64,000 nt of DNA, from contig NZ_AQOR01000001.1 in NCBI RefSeq assembly GCF_009846755.1, positions 124,001-188,000 on the forward strand, written 5' to 3'. This stretch comes from Alcanivorax sp. S71-1-4 (GTDB taxonomy: Bacteria > Pseudomonadota > Gammaproteobacteria > Pseudomonadales > Alcanivoracaceae). Below the pieces are notes generated by a model. That model had not been told where the DNA came from. It saw only the letters and a list, made by a program, of their open reading frames with translations, and did not search any database. Shown here piece by piece: positions 12,590 to 48,549 of the stretch. Each line of letters starts with the position of its first letter. Position 1 is the first letter of the stretch. The position numbers and the translations under genes were made by a program.

Positions 12590-13894
12590 TCAGTTTGATG
12601 ACACCGACACCTCTTTCAGTCGTATCGAGGCCAGTGTGCCGGCCAGTCCCATCGCCCCCAGCAGCCACAGCACCGCTGCCGTGGAGAGCAGCGACGCCAG
12701 CGCGCTGAGGCCGCCTGCCACCAGCAGCAACACGCCGATCACGGTATTGCTCACCGCCGTGTAGTCGGTGCGCTTGTTGCCACCGGCCATATCGACCAGA
12801 TAGGTTTTGCGGCCGATGCGCACGCCGGCGTGCGCCACCGACAGCACGAAGAACGCCAGCGGGAAAAACCACGGGTTGCCCTCCCCTGCCCACTGCGCAA
12901 AGCCGGCTGTGCCCAGGCAGGCCACACTCGCCAGCGCGCCGCCGCGAATCATTACCCGGCGCGACGAGGCATCGGCCATAAAGCCCCAGACACTGGCGCT
13001 CACCGCGCTGGCGAGGCTGGCAGCCATGACGAAGCTGCCGAGCAGCAGTGCCCCGCCGCCCTGCTGCTGTGCGAGGACCACGATAAACGGGGAGCCCAGC
13101 GCCGACGCCATCAGCAAGGCCCGCGAGATCACGAACCAGCGGAACGGCGCGTCATCGCGCAACAGCGTCAGGCTGCGCAGTGCCTGCGGCAGCGCGTGGC
13201 CGCCACCTTGTGTCTCGCCGTCGAACTCATCGATGCGTGAAAACAGCAGCGCGGCAGCGAACCAGGCAAGGGCGGCTGCCACCAGCAGGCCGGTATACAG
13301 CGCCAGCGACGGATCGTTCCGGTCGTTGAACAGGATTGCCGCCAGCGCCAGGGTGATCAGGCCGGAGAACGTGGCGGCCAGTCCGCCCAGCCGGCCGCGG
13401 CGTGACTTGGGAATGGTCTTGCCCTGCACATCTTTCATGGCCACCGAGCACAGGCCGCGTGCCAGTGAAAAGGCGGCCAGCAAGACAACAATGGCCAGCC
13501 CCGCGTGCAGGCCCTCCAGCAGCCACACGCTGGCGGCCATGCCGAGCACGGCGGCGCCCTGCAACAGGCTGCCGAGCACCCAGAAGGGTTTGCGGCGCGC
13601 GTGGCCACGCACCCAGGCGCCGATCATCAATTGCGGGATCATCGAACCGGATTCGCGGATCGGCACCAGTGCCGATACCAGCGCGGCGGGTGCACCGAGT
13701 GCCGGGATCAGCCAGGCCAGGATGGTTTTCGGATTGATCAGCAGATCGCCGATGCTGGTCAGCACCTGGCTGCAGAGCATCAGCAGAAAATTGCCCGGTA
13801 CTTCGCGGCAGGCATTGTCGGAAATATCGGTGCAGACGCGGGCGTCTTCTTCGTTGGCGACCAGGGCGTAGAGACGCTCTGTGGTGTCTTTCAT
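12590..13894 (-). CDS. Major facilitator superfamily transporter
   Basis: A 434-aa polytopic membrane protein with about twelve hydrophobic segments and a hydrophilic N-terminal ~45 aa. The central loop (RIDEFDGETQGGGHALPQA) separates two six-helix halves. RKPFWVLGSLLQG resembles the loop 2-3 region of MFS carriers. The substrate is unknown. The start at 13894 (MKDTTERLYALV) is chosen over an upstream in-frame start because that extension (MALPSHPPRAWN) looks non-coding. A type A repeat lies just upstream. Confidence 0.85.
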   Translation of the reverse strand: MKDTTERLYALVANEEDARVCTDISDNACREVPGNFLLMLCSQVLTSIGDLLINPKTILAWLIPALGAPAALVSALVPIRESGSMIPQLMIGAWVRGHARRKPFWVLGSLLQGAAVLGMAASVWLLEGLHAGLAIVVLLAAFSLARGLCSVAMKDVQGKTIPKSRRGRLGGLAATFSGLITLALAAILFNDRNDPSLALYTGLLVAAALAWFAAALLFSRIDEFDGETQGGGHALPQALRSLTLLRDDAPFRWFVISRALLMASALGSPFIVVLAQQQGGGALLLGSFVMAASLASAVSASVWGFMADASSRRVMIRGGALASVACLGTAGFAQWAGEGNPWFFPLAFFVLSVAHAGVRIGRKTYLVDMAGGNKRTDYTAVSNTVIGVLLLVAGGLSALASLLSTAAVLWLLGAMGLAGTLASIRLKEVSVSSN

Positions 13895-13915
13895 GCTATT
13901 CCACGCTCTGGGCGG

Positions 13916-14083
13916 GTGGGAGGGTAGAGCCAAAGGCGAAACCCACCATGGCCATGCCTGTTAATCACTCCCGCAAAATCATCGAAATCACCCGGCTTGG
14001 GAGGTGGGTAGTTTCGATGATTTTGTGCGAGCAGTACGCAACATGGTCCGGGTGGGTTTCGCCTTTGGCTCTACCCACCCTAC
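13916..14083. repeat. Type A interspersed repeat, copy 1 (inverted core orientation)
   Basis: The left arm GTAGAGCCAAAGGCGAAACC (from 13924) and right arm GGTTTCGCCTTTGGCTCTAC (through about 14073) are inverted repeats, extended by GTGGGAGG and CCACCCTAC outside. The core reads TCACTCCCGCAAAATCATCG on the left and TTTTGTGCGAGCAGT on the right, the reverse of the other three copies. The element lies between the MFS gene and the metF stop codon. Confidence 0.9.
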
Positions 14084-14086
14084 TGT

Positions 14087-14920
14087 TCAGAGTCCCAGAT
14101 TATCCAGCACTTTCAGTGTCGGTCCGGCCTGGTTCATGGTGTAGAAATGCAGGCCCGGCGCGCCCATCGCCAGCAGCCGTTCGCACAGCCGGGTCACGAT
14201 CTCGGTGCCGAACGCTTTCACCGCTGCGTCGTCGTCCTTGATATCGTTCAGCTTGCTGGCCAGCCAGCGCGGGATGTCCGCACCGCAGGTGCTGGAAAAA
14301 CGCAGCAGGTTGGCGACATTCAGGATCGGCATGATGCCGGGGTATACCGGCGCAGTGCAGCCTTTTTTCTGCAAGGCGTCGAGATAGAAACCGTAGGCGT
14401 CCGCATTGTAGAAATACTGCGTGATACCGTGGTTGGCGCCGGCGTCGATCTTGCGCTTGAAGTGCGCAATGTCGTCATCGAAGCTGCGTGCCTGTGGATG
14501 CATTTCCGGGTAGGCGGCGACTTCCAGCGTGAAATGATCGCCGCTGATCTCGCGGATCAATGCCACCAGATCGTCGGCGTATTTCAGCTCGCCCTGGGCG
14601 TACCCCATGCCCGACGGCAGGTCGCCGCGCAGCGCCACGATGCGCGTCACGCCGTTGTCGCGGTAGTGGTTGATCAGCTCGACCAGCTCCTCGCGGCTCT
14701 GGCCAATGCAGCTCAGGTGCGGCGCGGTGTCGGGGTGCTGTCCGCGCAGCCGGTTGACGGTGTTGATGGTGTTGTCGCGGGTAGAGCCGCCGGCGCCATA
14801 GGTGCAGGAGAAAAATTCAGGGTTTTTCGCCAGCAGTTTCTGCTGTACGCCGAGCAGCTTGTCCAGCCCTTCCGCCGTTTTCGGCGGGAAGAATTCAAAA
14901 CTGATGCGTTTGCCTGTCAT
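14087..14920 (-). CDS. metF: 5,10-methylenetetrahydrofolate reductase
   Basis: An FAD-dependent enzyme of 277 aa that reduces methylene-THF to methyl-THF, the methyl donor for methionine synthesis. The N-terminus RISFEFFPPKTAEG and the segments CTYGAGGSTRD, ALRGDLP and PGIMPILN are diagnostic. It is the last gene of the leftward sahR-metK-ahcY-metF operon and begins 48 bp after the ahcY stop codon. Confidence 0.97.
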   Translation of the reverse strand: MTGKRISFEFFPPKTAEGLDKLLGVQQKLLAKNPEFFSCTYGAGGSTRDNTINTVNRLRGQHPDTAPHLSCIGQSREELVELINHYRDNGVTRIVALRGDLPSGMGYAQGELKYADDLVALIREISGDHFTLEVAAYPEMHPQARSFDDDIAHFKRKIDAGANHGITQYFYNADAYGFYLDALQKKGCTAPVYPGIMPILNVANLLRFSSTCGADIPRWLASKLNDIKDDDAAVKAFGTEIVTRLCERLLAMGAPGLHFYTMNQAGPTLKVLDNLGL

Positions 14921-14940
14921 GGTGCGATGTCCCGTTCACG

Positions 14941-14960
14941 GGCCGGCCTGGTGGCCGGCC
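14941..14960 (-). other. Intercistronic hairpin between ahcY and metF
   Basis: A perfect 8-bp GGCCGGCC stem with a 4-base loop lies just after ahcY. No T tract follows in the leftward direction, so it is more likely an RNA-processing or attenuating hairpin than a full terminator. Confidence 0.4.
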
Positions 14961-14968
14961 CTGTGTCC

Positions 14969-16357
14969 TCAGTACTTGTAGTGATCCGGCTTGAACGGGC
15001 CGTCCACTGTCACGCCGATGTAGTCGGCCTGGGTGTCGGTCAGACGTGTCATGACACCACCGAAACCCTGCACCATATAACGGGCTACTTCCTCGTCCAG
15101 TTGCTTGGGCAGCACTTCCACTTTCAGCATGCGCTGTTTGACCGCGTCGCTGTGGTTGGCGTAACCCTGATCGAACAGGTACATCTGCGCCAGCACCTGG
15201 TTGGCAAAAGAGCCGTCCATGATGCGGCTCGGGTGGCCGGTGGCATTGCCCAGGTTGACCAGGCGGCCTTCGGACAGCAGCAGCAGGAAGTCGCCTTTGG
15301 CCTTGTCGCGCCACACTTTGTGTACCTGGGGTTTCACTTCTTCCCATTCCCAGTTCTTGCGCATCCAGGCGGTGTCGATTTCATTGTCGAAATGACCGAT
15401 GTTGCTGACCACGCAGCCCGGCTTCAGGGCTTTGAGCATGTTGGCATCACACACATTGACGTTGCCGGTGGTGGTCACCACCAGGTCGATCTGGCCAAGC
15501 AGCGCGGTATCAATGCTGTCGGCCTTGCCGGTGTTCAGGCCGTTGATGAACGGGCTGACCACTTCGTATCCGTCCATGCAGGCCTGCATGGCGCAGATCG
15601 GGTCAATCTCGGTGACGCGCACGATCATGCCTTCCTGGCGTAGTGACTGCGCAGAGCCCTTGCCCACGTCGCCATAGCCGATCACCAGTGCTTTCTTGCC
15701 GGACAACAGATGGTCGGTGCCGCGCTTGATGGCGTCGTTGAGCGAATGACGGCAGCCGTACTTGTTGTCGTTTTTTGACTTGGTGACGGAGTCGTTGACG
15801 TTCACTGCCGGTACTTTCAAAGTGCCTTTTTTCAGCATCTCGTACAGGCGGTGCACACCGGTGGTGGTTTCTTCGGTGATGCCGTGAATCTTGTCCAGCA
15901 TCTGCGGGTACTGGTCGTGGATGTGCGCGGTCAGGTCGCCGCCGTCATCCAGAATCATGTTGGCGTCCCACAGGTCGCCGTTGGCGTCACGGCAGGTCTG
16001 CTCGATACACCACATGTATTCTTCTTCGGTCTCGCCTTTCCAGGCGAATACCGGCACGCCGGCGGCGGCAATGGCGGCAGCAGCGTGATCCTGGGTGGAG
16101 AAGATGTTGCAGCTCGACCAGCGCACTTCCGCGCCCAGTGCTTTCAGTGTTTCGATCAGCACGGCGGTCTGGATGGTCATGTGGATGCAGCCGATGATCT
16201 TTGCGCCCTTCAGCGGCTGCTGTGCGCGGTACTTTTCACGGATCGCCATCAGTGCCGGCATTTCGGTTTCGGCGATCTCGATTTCCTTGCGGCCCCAGTC
16301 GGCCAGCGAAATGTCGGCGACTTTATAGTCTGCGGCGACATCGGTTTTTGCGTTCAT
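14969..16357 (-). CDS. ahcY: S-adenosylhomocysteine hydrolase
   Basis: NAD-dependent AhcY splits SAH to homocysteine and adenosine, relieving product inhibition of methyltransferases. The protein has 462 aa. Visible motifs are [31 protein letters not shown], the NAD-binding [13 protein letters not shown], and the C-terminal FKPDHYKY. The ATG at 16357 follows GGAGAAGCAC; an upstream in-frame ATG would lie on the ribosome site. An SAH riboswitch immediately precedes the gene and metK lies upstream in the same operon. Confidence 0.97.
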
Positions 16358-16382
16358 GTGCTTCTCCATTCGTTTTTGACGA

Positions 16383-16456
16383 ATGGGCGCCGTTGCATCA
16401 ATGATGCGCCCTGCCCCCGAGCCTCGCGGTCTGACCGCTGCAGCGCCCCTCGGGAA
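16383..16456 (-). ncRNA. SAH riboswitch in the ahcY leader
   Basis: On the minus strand the metK-ahcY gap holds all conserved parts of the S-adenosylhomocysteine riboswitch. CCCGAG (16454-16449) can pair with CTCGGG (16421-16416) as the pseudoknot. GGGCGC (16448-16443) pairs with GCGCCC (16390-16385) as P1. A GCGGT/ACCGC hairpin forms P2, GCATCA/TGATGC forms the variable hairpin, and the AACGGCGCCC 3' block is present. This class turns expression on when SAH accumulates. It lies between two genes of one operon rather than at the promoter. Confidence 0.9.
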
Positions 16457-16468
16457 CAGGGCGTGGTA

Positions 16469-17629
16469 TTACAGGCCGGCGTCGGCTTTCAGTGCGGCAG
16501 CCTTGTCGGTCTTTTCCCAGGTGAAGTTGTCACCTTCGCGGCCGAAGTGGCCATAAGCCGCTGTGGCACGGTAGATCGGACGGCGCAGGTCGAGCATTTC
16601 GATGATGCCGCGCGGACGCAGGTCGAAGTGCTTGCGCACCAGCTCGATGATCACCTCATCAGCGACCTTGCCGGTGCCGAAAGTGTTGACCGAGATGGAG
16701 GTCGGCTCGGCCACGCCGATGGCGTAGCTGACCTGGATCTCACATTTGCCGGCCAGCCCGGCGGCGACAATATTCTTTGCCACATAGCGGCCTGCGTAGG
16801 CGGCGGAGCGGTCCACTTTCGTCGGATCCTTGCCGGAGAACGCGCCGCCGCCGTGACGGGCCATGCCGCCGTAGGTGTCGACGATGATCTTGCGACCCGT
16901 CAGGCCGCAGTCGCCCATCGGGCCACCAATAATGAACTGGCCGGTCGGGTTGATGTGGAAGCGGGTCTTGTCGTGCAGCCACTCTTGCGGCAGCACCGGC
17001 AACAGGATTTCGTCCATCACCGCATCGCGCAGGTCGGCCTGGCTGATGTCCGGGCTGTGCTGGGTGGACAGCACCACGGCGTCGATGGCGACCGGTTTGC
17101 CGTTTTCATAACGCAGCGTCACCTGGCTTTTTGCATCCGGGCGCAGCCACGGCAGCACGCCGTTCTTGCGCAGCTCGGCCTGGCGCTCCACCAGACGGTG
17201 CGAGAAAAAGATCGGCGCGGGCATCAAGGTGTCGGTTTCGTTGGTCGCGTAGCCGAACATCAGGCCCTGGTCGCCGGCACCGATTTCCTTGTCTTCTTTC
17301 GCGTCCACGCCCATGGCGATGTCCGGGCTCTGCTTGCCGATGGCGTTGAGTACCGCACAGCTGGCACCGTCAAAGCCGACGTCGGAGCTGTCGTAACCGA
17401 TGTCCAGGATCACCTGGCGCACCACGTCTTCCAAGTCCACATAGGTGGAGGTGGTGACTTCGCCCGCAACCACGGCCATGCCGGTTTTCACCAGGGTTTC
17501 CACCGCCACACGTGCGTGCGGATCATCCTTGATGATGGCGTCGAGCACGGCATCCGAAATCTGGTCGGCCATTTTGTCCGGATGGCCTTCGGATACGGAT
17601 TCCGACGTAAAGATGGAATATTCGCTCAT
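16469..17629 (-). CDS. metK: S-adenosylmethionine synthetase
   Basis: MetK makes SAM from methionine and ATP. The protein has 386 aa, the family's usual size. Motifs are [13 protein letters not shown] at the N-terminus, [12 protein letters not shown], and the glycine-rich [19 protein letters not shown]. The ATG at 17629 (MSEYSIF) is the normal MetK start; a longer in-frame reading upstream would overlap the sahR-like gene and is rejected. It is the second gene of the SAM-cycle operon. Confidence 0.97.
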
Positions 17630-17657
17630 TGCTTTGGTGGCTCCCTGGTTGAGGGGT

Positions 17658-18680
17658 TTACGGATTGAGTGCGTCGTCCGCGTGCACAAAGCTGCACGCC
17701 TGGACCTGAAAACCATTGCGCTGGGCCAGAAACTGGATCTCCAGCAACCGCAGGCCGGCGCGCTGCGCCCAGCCTTCCAGCTCCTGCTCATCAAAACCCA
17801 GCCACTGATCGCCGCAGCGTTCCCGTGCCCAGGCCTGGTCGTGCCGGCACAGCTCGGTAATCACCAGCACGCCGCCCCGGCGCAGCCGGCGCGCGGCGGT
17901 GACAAAACAGTCTGCCGGTGTCGGCAGATGGTGCAGCACCATGTTCAGCACCACGGCGTCAAACTGGCGTGGTGGTGCGGCCTGCGGCCAGTCACCCCGT
18001 ATCAGGCGGACATTTTTCAGCCCCGCCTCGGTGACCCGGTGGCGGGCGTGGGCCAGCATCGCCTCGCTGCTTTCCAGCCCGCTGACCTGCCGGAAGCGCC
18101 CGGCGAGCCGGACCAGAAAGCGGCCATCGCCAGGGCCCACTTCCAGGGCTGCGTCGCCGCCGTCGGGCAGGGCGCGGGCCAGCAGCTCGTCCGCGAGGTC
18201 GCCATACTGGGCATAATCGGCGATCAAGTCGTCATGTGCGTCGAAATCGCCACCATTTCGCTCGAAAAATGCCCGGCTCTGCGCCGCGCGCTGTGCTTCG
18301 ATGCGGGCCAGGCGGCGGGCCACTGGTGGCGCCAGGTCCTGCGCATCCAGACGTTCCAGCAAGGCGCGGTGCAGGCTGCCGGTATCCGCCTGCGGGTCCG
18401 GCAACTGACGGCGGTAGAAGATGGTGTTGCCTTCTCGCCGCTGTTCCACCAGCGCGGCCTTCGCCAGCACTTTCAGGTGGTGGCTCATGCCGGACTGGCG
18501 CATGTCCAGAATCTCGGCCAGTTCCAGTACCGCGAAGCTGTTATAGCCCAGCACTTGCAGGGCCTGCAGGCGCAGCGGGTCGCCAGCGGCTTTCAATAGC
18601 GCCGCCAGTGCATCCAGCGTGGTGTCTTCGGCGTCCGGCGCCACCTGCAACAGGGTCATAAGGAGCGCAGTGTAGGGCAT
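17658..18680 (-). CDS. ArsR-family regulator fused to a SAM-dependent methyltransferase domain (SahR-like)
   Basis: A 340-aa two-domain protein. The N-terminal winged helix-turn-helix (about residues 20-95: [26 protein letters not shown]) is of the ArsR type. The C-terminal half is a class I methyltransferase fold with motif [13 protein letters not shown] and the later [12 protein letters not shown] segment. This architecture, heading metK-ahcY-metF, matches SahR, described in Proteobacteria as a repressor of SAM-cycle genes that responds to SAH. The ATG at 18680 lies 4 bp from a 32-bp palindrome; an alternative ATG at 18659 cannot be excluded. Confidence 0.85.
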
Positions 18681-18684
18681 GCGC

Positions 18685-18716
18685 AAACCTATATCAAAAT
18701 ATTTTGATATAGGTTT
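18685..18716. promoter_or_regulatory. 32-bp perfect palindrome, probable SahR operator
   Basis: The left half AAACCTATATCAAAAT is followed directly by its exact reverse complement. It is strikingly AT-rich in a GC-rich region and abuts the start of the sahR-like gene at the operon promoter. The position strongly suggests autoregulation of the sahR-metK-ahcY-metF operon; the binding protein is inferred. Confidence 0.85.
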
Positions 18717-18853
18717 CGGGTGGCCGGCGGGCTGCGATTGGCCAGGTCTGGGCAGGGCGGCAGCAGGGGGGGAGGGACGGGAGCCGGCGGGATCCGTCGA
18801 ACAGATGTTGCGTGCGCTGGGGTAGAGGTATTCGGCCGTGATGATCGCGGGCG

Positions 18854-19504
18854 TCAGCCTTCGATCAGCCAGGCCCGTTCGCGCAGGGTGTTCAGCCCGG
18901 CTTCTTCAAAGCGGGGCTGCCCGGATGACGCATCCTCGACCTCAAGCTGCCGCACGGCACAGCCGTGGAACAGCCGTTCCACTTCGTCGGCGCTGACAGA
19001 AAAGGGCGGTCCGTCCATTTTCGATTGATCGTATTCCAGTGAGACCAGCAGCATGCGCCAGCCGGCCGGCAGGATGCGGCGCAGGTGTGCCACATAGCGT
19101 TCGCGCATCAGGGGTGGCAGCGCGATCAGTGCGGCACGGTCGTAGACAGCCTGCACGTGGGCGATGTCATCGGCGGTGAGTGAAAAGAAGTCGCCGCAAT
19201 ACAGCGAGTAGCCGGGGGCGTGGGCCACTGTCAGGGCGCCGGCGGGTTGCCATGAGGCGGTGAGCTGGTGGGCACTCAGGAAGGCCTCCAGTGCTGCGCG
19301 TGACAGTTCCGCGCCGACCACCGGATGGCCCTGGCGCTGTAGCCAGTGCATGTCCTCACTCTTTCCGCACAGCGGCACCAGTACCGGGGCTTCGGGCGCG
19401 AGACCCAGCGCAGGCCAGTGACGGGGCAGCCAGCGATGGCCCTCGGGCTGATGGAACCCGATTTCGTTGTTCTGCCAGCGGCGGTGCCAGAATGCTGCTT
19501 CCAT
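18854..19504 (-). CDS. tpm: Thiopurine S-methyltransferase
   Basis: A SAM-dependent methyltransferase of 216 aa of the bacterial TPMT family, which methylates thiols such as thiopurines and, in some bacteria, tellurite or selenite. Family features are FWHRRWQNNEIGFHQPEGH at the N-terminus, VLVPLCGKSEDMHWL (motif I), VVGAELSRAALEAF and YDRAALIALPP. Its position beside the SAM/SAH operon may be coincidental; it has its own upstream region. Confidence 0.93.
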   Translation of the reverse strand: MEAAFWHRRWQNNEIGFHQPEGHRWLPRHWPALGLAPEAPVLVPLCGKSEDMHWLQRQGHPVVGAELSRAALEAFLSAHQLTASWQPAGALTVAHAPGYSLYCGDFFSLTADDIAHVQAVYDRAALIALPPLMRERYVAHLRRILPAGWRMLLVSLEYDQSKMDGPPFSVSADEVERLFHGCAVRQLEVEDASSGQPRFEEAGLNTLRERAWLIEG

Positions 19505-48359: not shown

Positions 48360-48549
48360 GAGGTGCTCCCCGATTGTGCCGCTGCTGTGGCTTGGCCCTT
48401 GAACCCTGCGGTTCAAGGCGGAGACGTCATGCAATGCTTCAGGCTTTCCGTCGCAACGGACATGCACACAGCATCGCCGTATTCGCCCCCAAGGTTTAAA
48501 GCATCGGCTCAGGGACATCGCCTTGCTGGCGAGCACACCAGGGAACACG
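48360..48549 (-). ncRNA. ssrS: 6S RNA
   Basis: The minus strand has the conserved 6S features. The closing stem pairs GTGTTCCC (5' end) with GGGGAGCAC (3' end). The 5' side has CTGGTGTGC and GATGTCCCTGAGCCGATG; the central bubble has GTGTGCATGTCCG and GACGGAAAGCCT; the 3' side has CGCCTTGAACC...GGTTCAAGGG. These match Pseudomonas-type 6S RNA, which binds the housekeeping RNA polymerase in stationary phase. Ends are approximate; the 5' end is set from the -10 box. Confidence 0.9.

Follow-up and report, generated by a model that had tools for sequence, protein, structure and literature searches.

Two candidate S-adenosylhomocysteine sensors, a SahR-like repressor and a riboswitch, lie in series along one operon of Alcanivorax

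To explore how the S-adenosylmethionine (SAM) cycle may be controlled in Alcanivorax sp. S71-1-4, a member of the oil-degrading marine family Alcanivoracaceae, we analyzed a stretch of 64,000 nucleotides (nt) from contig NZ_AQOR01000001.1 (positions 124,001 to 188,000; hereafter the window). Four genes lie head to tail on its minus strand in the order sahR-metK-ahcY-metF, with gaps of 28, 111 and 48 nt. Two candidate sensors of S-adenosylhomocysteine (SAH), a toxic product of methylation reactions, are built into this SAM-cycle operon: the regulator SahR, whose presumed operator sits at the sahR promoter, and an SAH riboswitch in the metK-ahcY gap. The features, in window coordinates, are as follows.

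18685-18716, no strand: presumed SahR operator, a 32-bp perfect palindrome with the core ATATC-N10-GATAT at 18691-18710
18669-18697, minus strand: sahR promoter; -35 box TTGATA (18697-18692) inside the palindrome, 17-nt spacer, -10 box TACACT (18674-18669)
17658-18659, minus strand: sahR; ArsR-type winged-helix domain plus class I SAM/SAH-binding methyltransferase domain, 333 amino acids from ATG 18659
16469-17629, minus strand: metK, methionine adenosyltransferase (TIGR01034, 630.1 bits)
16378-16457, minus strand: SAH riboswitch aptamer (RF01057); pseudoknot strands GGGCGC (16448-16443) and GCGCCC (16390-16385)
16364-16386, minus strand: expression platform; hairpin CCATTCGT/ACGAATGG (16386-16366) and Shine-Dalgarno sequence GGAG (16367-16364)
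14969-16357, minus strand: ahcY, S-adenosylhomocysteine hydrolase (TIGR00936, 530.6 bits, curated cut-off 497.6, scanned from the upstream in-frame ATG 16369)
14087-14920, minus strand: metF, methylenetetrahydrofolate reductase (TIGR00676, 314.6 bits, cut-off 293.7)

SahR proteins are made up of an ArsR domain and a methyltransferase domain. An earlier note on this DNA had placed such a fusion at the head of the operon, and profile searches bear this out, with a match to NCBIfam NF033788 at 71.3 bits (cut-off 55) and matches to the Pfam domains HTH_20/HTH_5 and Methyltransf_11, that is, an ArsR helix-turn-helix joined to a class I methyltransferase. Its neighbours metK, ahcY and metF are core genes of SahR regulons. 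The start of sahR is most likely ATG 18659 rather than TTG 18686. The genome holds one full-length SahR, the other three matches being weak and confined to the methyltransferase part, and the solved structures that a search returned are relatives of either the ArsR or the methyltransferase part, each on its own (best E 5e-9).

The palindrome that the same note had seen at the promoter is also there: two 16-nt arms, 100% complementary and with no spacer, lie over the -35 box, which comes from the right half. Its 20-bp core occurs as a single mismatch-free copy in the 4.18-Mb genome, and allowing up to three mismatches added only one further site, with two mismatches. Leyn et al. (PMC4239095) give an ATC-10nt-GAT core as common to the SamR and gammaproteobacterial SahR motifs; the window palindrome contains this ATC-N10-GAT core upstream of sahR, as a SahR operator should, and is conserved among relatives. 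Since chance alone should produce 1.1 such sigma-70-like sites over the two strands of the 5.6 kb scanned, conservation in relatives is stronger evidence for the promoter than the match in the window. The pattern TTGAT-N16-18-TANANT-N3-14-ATG was present in 31 of the 32 Alcanivoracaceae loci with upstream DNA available (the operators of two of the 32, G010 and G012, were matched by patterns written for them; G016 and G017, whose contigs start inside sahR, were left out of the count). The sahR ATG lies 9 nt past the -10 box in the window and 7-10 nt past it in 31 of 32 family loci. At the usual distance from the -10 box, the mRNA would start at or a few bases before this ATG, so that sahR is probably translated with little or no leader across the Alcanivoracaceae. 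In scans of 13700-19300, the gaps between the operon's genes held nothing terminator-like on the minus strand, and a consensus search detected no minus-strand promoter-like site besides the sahR promoter, although such consensus scans miss many promoters.

The third element claimed in the earlier note, a complete SAH riboswitch between metK and ahcY, was confirmed by a full-length covariance-model match to RF01057 (1-78; 54.6 bits, gathering score 37; E 2.6e-7 over the full 64 kb). A search of the genome that scored 150 of its 1997 first-look candidates found no other SAH riboswitch. The two pseudoknot strands, GGGCGC and GCGCCC, are complementary as read from the sequence and correspond to GAGCGC/GCGCUC in the Rfam consensus. 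The 3' arm of the platform hairpin CCATTCGT/ACGAATGG contains the GG of the ahcY Shine-Dalgarno sequence GGAG, and the first two C's of the hairpin overlap the 3' pseudoknot strand, making the two helices mutually exclusive. The start of ahcY is most likely ATG 16357 rather than ATG 16369, which falls within this anti-Shine-Dalgarno hairpin.

We then compared 57 distinct riboswitches gathered by sequence pattern, a procedure that fixes the core and the GGAG by construction. Pairs 3-7 of the anti-Shine-Dalgarno hairpin were complementary in 52-54 of the 57. Helix P1 is maintained by compensatory change, as is characteristic of RF01057: its positions 5-10 were paired in 85.6% of cells, against a mean of 57.0% and a maximum of 61.9% in shuffled controls and at most 51.2% in slid ones, a contrast that the shuffled controls overstate because the sequences are related. 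The excess held in the 25 Alcanivoracaceae sequences alone (79.2% versus a shuffled maximum of 54.4%) and in the other 32 (90.6% versus 82.3%). Folding gave the two Shine-Dalgarno G's unpaired probabilities of 0.00 and 0.00 in the free RNA and of 0.32 and 0.34 when the pseudoknot strands were withheld, which fits a translational switch turned on by SAH, with partial opening.

We consider it probable, at roughly two chances in three, that these parts act as two successive SAH-responsive switches of a single operon. At low SAH, SahR would sit on the palindrome, cover the -35 box and repress sahR-metK-ahcY-metF, its own gene included. As SAH rises it would bind the methyltransferase-like domain, SahR would leave the DNA, and a polycistronic mRNA would be made from which metK is translated. 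The metK-ahcY spacer of that mRNA would fold into the SAH aptamer. Without SAH the hairpin would hide the two G's of the Shine-Dalgarno sequence of ahcY; once SAH is bound, the pseudoknot would claim the two hairpin C's and open the site, allowing translation of ahcY and, via ahcY, of metF. What we observe is which parts are present, where they lie, how far they are conserved and that the competing helices are complementary; it is by analogy with the named families that SAH would be the ligand of both sensors, SahR a repressor released by it and the riboswitch an SAH-on element. The single transcript, the coupling to metF and the AND-type logic we infer. The earlier note had suggested that metK could be tuned separately from ahcY-metF; the layout supports this, with one presumed SAH-responsive step ahead of metK and two ahead of ahcY-metF. 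The output of metK would then track one SAH response and that of ahcY-metF the product of two, giving a steeper and more tightly shut recycling branch. If this is correct, one metabolite is sensed twice along the life of one mRNA, by protein and by RNA, with effects on different enzymes of one cycle.

A methyltransferase fold can accommodate either SAM or SAH, and a different assignment of ligands would have the regulator sense SAM, as has been proposed for SamR, with only the riboswitch sensing SAH, so that the operon would integrate both metabolites. We found no test of the effector of the Alcanivoracaceae regulator in the literature. However, the window SahR is 49-54% identical to single-copy proteins of the Pseudomonadaceae genomes searched, a family in which Leyn et al. 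(PMC4239095) assign SahR to 8/8 genomes and in which PA0547 is named sahR (PMC7950407). The same study (PMC4239095) puts SamR at about 30% identity to SahR and describes SamR regulons, in Xanthomonadales, with no SAM-cycle genes except metK, whereas the window operon includes ahcY; no SamR sequence entered our comparison by name. We regard sensing of two metabolites as very unlikely.

To ask how widely the arrangement occurs, we searched related genomes; in samples of more than 40 genomes the RNA search used stricter filters and scored 11-65 candidates per genome, so that riboswitch counts there are lower bounds. In a set of 57 made up of the window genome and its relatives, RF01057 was detected in 25 genomes and SahR (E <=1e-30) in 50, and among 36 Alcanivoracaceae genomes the counts were 24 and 34. 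In 24 of the 24 riboswitch-bearing family genomes the riboswitch sits downstream of sahR in the metK-ahcY gap, with its core starting 10-120 nt past the metK stop. The sahR-metK-riboswitch-ahcY arrangement is a trait of the Alcanivoracaceae and not a peculiarity of the window genome. An apparent double tandem SAH riboswitch in Alcanivorax sp. S6407 (G027, locus L082) was set aside as probably an assembly or scaffold-joining artefact, because the repeated stretch includes the first ahcY codons and a single N marks the joint of the two copies.

In the order sample RF01057 was present in 41 of 390 genomes; 28 of these 41 lie outside the family, and 21 of the 28 also have SahR. Only in G252 among the out-of-family genomes do riboswitch and sahR lie within 1.5 kb of each other, with about 245 nt from the metK stop to the riboswitch and no gene seen between. 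In 17 of the 21 genomes with both, the sensors share contig and strand at distances of 3.6-18 kb (132 kb in G347), and in three they are on different contigs. Such spacing would suit parallel rather than serial control, in which ahcY-metF has a promoter of its own, for example in the 3' end of metK, and the riboswitch acts mainly on SahR-independent mRNA, as it apparently does in Pseudomonas. Atopomonas hussainii, which we rejected as a second serial case, points the same way, with an apparent terminator (hairpin plus T run, judged by eye) and about 700 nt between metK and riboswitch; and in 10 of the 24 family loci the core begins 67-120 nt past the metK stop, leaving room for a promoter. In the window, however, the aptamer model starts only 11 nt past the metK stop, and the consensus scan, with the limited sensitivity given above, detected no promoter-like site there. 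Parallel control of the two branches therefore appears unlikely to us, though less so than sensing of two metabolites.

Beyond the order the two sensors rarely meet. The class sample had RF01057 in 154 of 369 genomes, 150 of them outside the order, and distant SahR matches (E <=1e-20; 29-35% identity) in 6 of these 150; in the three of the six for which both positions were available, riboswitch and SahR-like regulator are on different contigs. The view in the earlier note that SahR and SAH riboswitches are alternatives used by different lineages is thus in keeping with their rare co-occurrence outside Pseudomonadales and fails within the Pseudomonadaceae, where Table 1 of Leyn et al. 2014 (PMC4239095) lists SahR in 8/8 genomes and the SAH riboswitch in 7/8. 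The same table lists no SAH riboswitch in 12 genomes of Oceanospirillales and various gammaproteobacteria.

A genome of another family, G134, has a SahR-operator-like site and the promoter-like sequence TTGGAT-17-TATACT directly ahead of its riboswitch and ahcY; dual control of ahcY may have been reached there by another route. This was the only good operator match ahead of any riboswitch examined; the 400 nt preceding the Alcanivoracaceae riboswitches and the examined Pseudomonadaceae riboswitches yielded none. With the riboswitch inside the SahR operon (Alcanivoracaceae) and the SahR operator ahead of the riboswitch (G134) as two different layouts, a broader proposal is that a two-stage AND gate is family-wide, was reached at least twice in Pseudomonadales, and has repeatedly had its RNA stage lost or swapped for a TIGR02436 element. 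By AND gate we mean that SAH would both release the promoter repressor and open the intercistronic riboswitch for ahcY-metF, with metK needing the first step only. We consider this broader proposal an even bet.

Several points weigh against serial control. Our literature search found no expression or binding data for Alcanivoracaceae. Three weak minus-strand terminator-like sites lie within the sahR coding region. The arms of the anti-Shine-Dalgarno hairpin are nearly invariant, so that covariation is uninformative for this helix, and the predicted opening of the Shine-Dalgarno sequence is partial, with a 6-bp hairpin persisting in the folds. The G134 operator scores 24.8, near the low end of its training set (minimum 23.0, mean 38.0). 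Finally, of the 34 family loci that have sahR, 10 lack the riboswitch, and these are spread across the tree, indicating that it is dispensable in close relatives.

These absences are not riboswitches missed by strict filters, since no SAH match turned up at any of the 10 loci when Rfam was run with laxer settings and hits were allowed up to E 1. Seven of the 10 gaps (441-471 nt) contain an open reading frame (ORF) above the TIGR02436 cut-off, at 107-133 bits for the four ORFs scanned (cut-off 24). They fall into three sequence types and lie between the metK stop and the ahcY Shine-Dalgarno sequence; the gaps of riboswitch loci, at 78-201 nt (338 nt in G027), leave no room for one. Of the other three, G029, putatively A. 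borkumensis SK2, has repeat-like remnants only, the gap of G032 is 18 nt long, and no element was recognised in G017. If A. borkumensis was one of the 12 genomes of Oceanospirillales and various gammaproteobacteria in Leyn et al., its lack of the riboswitch would go some way to account for the zero count there. Outside the 36-genome sample, Alcanivorax sp. NORP25 (L168) carries a TIGR02436 copy broken by a stop. The operator was retained in 9 of the 10 riboswitch-free loci, the nine that could be assessed. It might then be that the riboswitch is a fading remnant that adds little, with SahR alone in control, and the replaced alleles would agree with this. Where the riboswitch is present, however, its core, P1 pairing and anti-Shine-Dalgarno hairpin are intact, and it was kept in 7/7 sampled genomes of the window's genus. 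We therefore hold a remnant to be improbable, on a par with sensing of two metabolites, and continue to favour serial control.

On a tree of the operon proteins, riboswitch absence requires at least 8 changes, close to the shuffled mean of 8.8 (166 of 500 shuffles gave 8 or fewer), which does not allow a clean history of loss to be drawn. Within Alloalcanivorax marinus, strain SY10-13 (L069, G034) has the SAH riboswitch and strain NMRL4 (L070, G024) a TIGR02436 element, with DNA identities of 93.6% in sahR and 95.6% in metK. The first fifth of ahcY in G019 is 94.6% identical to that of the element-bearing G028 and 89.2% to that of its close relative G026. These comparisons offer only hints that riboswitch and element may be swapped by homologous exchange. 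Natural alleles with and without the RNA stage make the gain from a second sensor of the same ligand measurable, as steepness, lower leak or metK:ahcY ratio.

The TIGR02436 family has a four-helix-bundle fold and is linked to 23S rRNA intervening sequences. In Alcanivorax and Alloalcanivorax its ORFs sit between arrays of short repeats in inverted orientation, and the repeat sequence varies from copy to copy. Among the loci compared (metK-ahcY gaps L070, L076, L077, L078, L085, L087 and L089, plus L236-L265), 22 of 30 were scored; an inverted repeat of at least 14 nt was present at 22 of the 22 and one of at least 17 nt at 20, versus 18 and 2, respectively, of 120 control positions, which were mostly coding. 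Copy number was 0-4 per genome in the 24 genomes searched, with none in the six of the window's genus. The ORFs with their repeats may be small mobile elements.

SahR regulons are reportedly also the subject of Novichkov et al. (2014). Already known are SahR, the SAH riboswitch, the presence of both in one genome (Pseudomonadaceae) and a same-ligand protein-RNA pair for Mn2+. The SahR regulons of Desulfovibrio, alphaproteobacteria and some gammaproteobacteria likewise have an ArsR-methyltransferase regulator, an ATC-N10-GAT palindrome and control of metK, ahcY and metF, but the window operon differs in having an SAH riboswitch inside it. RF01057 ahead of ahcY-metF in Pseudomonadaceae and betaproteobacteria (Leyn et al. 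2014, PMC4239095) is the same aptamer with the same targets, and the Pseudomonadaceae loci that we fetched have an anti-Shine-Dalgarno platform like the window's; there, however, the riboswitch lies in a leader of its own, not between two cistrons of a SahR operon. Pseudomonadaceae have both sensors per genome and the same division of targets, but with sahR-metK and riboswitch-ahcY-metF as separate units and ahcY kilobases from the sahR promoter. The hom-metXC operon of Oceanicaulis alexandrii, as described by Leyn et al. (PMC4239095), also combines a protein and an RNA sensor, SahR and a SAM_alpha riboswitch, with different ligands (SAH and SAM). In E. coli, mntP is controlled by MntR and a Mn2+ riboswitch that share a ligand on one gene (PMC9495176), but the shared ligand is a metal and no operon is divided into early and late genes. 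In the literature searched we found no description of SahR and an SAH riboswitch in series on one operon and no paper naming Alcanivorax together with an SAH riboswitch. Neither the Results nor the Discussion in Leyn et al. (PMC4239095) describes the serial arrangement, though single genomes in its figures, supplements or Table S2 could show it.

Three further observations concern the operon's distal end and the rest of the window. The ahcY-metF gap contains, at 14940-14961, a strong hairpin with a GC-only stem, GGGCCGGCC-ACCA-GGCCGGCCC, that has no T run and might damp or stabilise the metF mRNA. Between metF and a major facilitator superfamily (MFS) gene, at 13922-14076, are nested inverted repeats (for example GGTGGGTTTCGCCTTTGGCTCTACCC and its complement) that look like a small repeat of the miniature inverted-repeat transposable element (MITE) type. 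A 6S RNA gene lies at 48363-48547 on the minus strand (113.9 bits).

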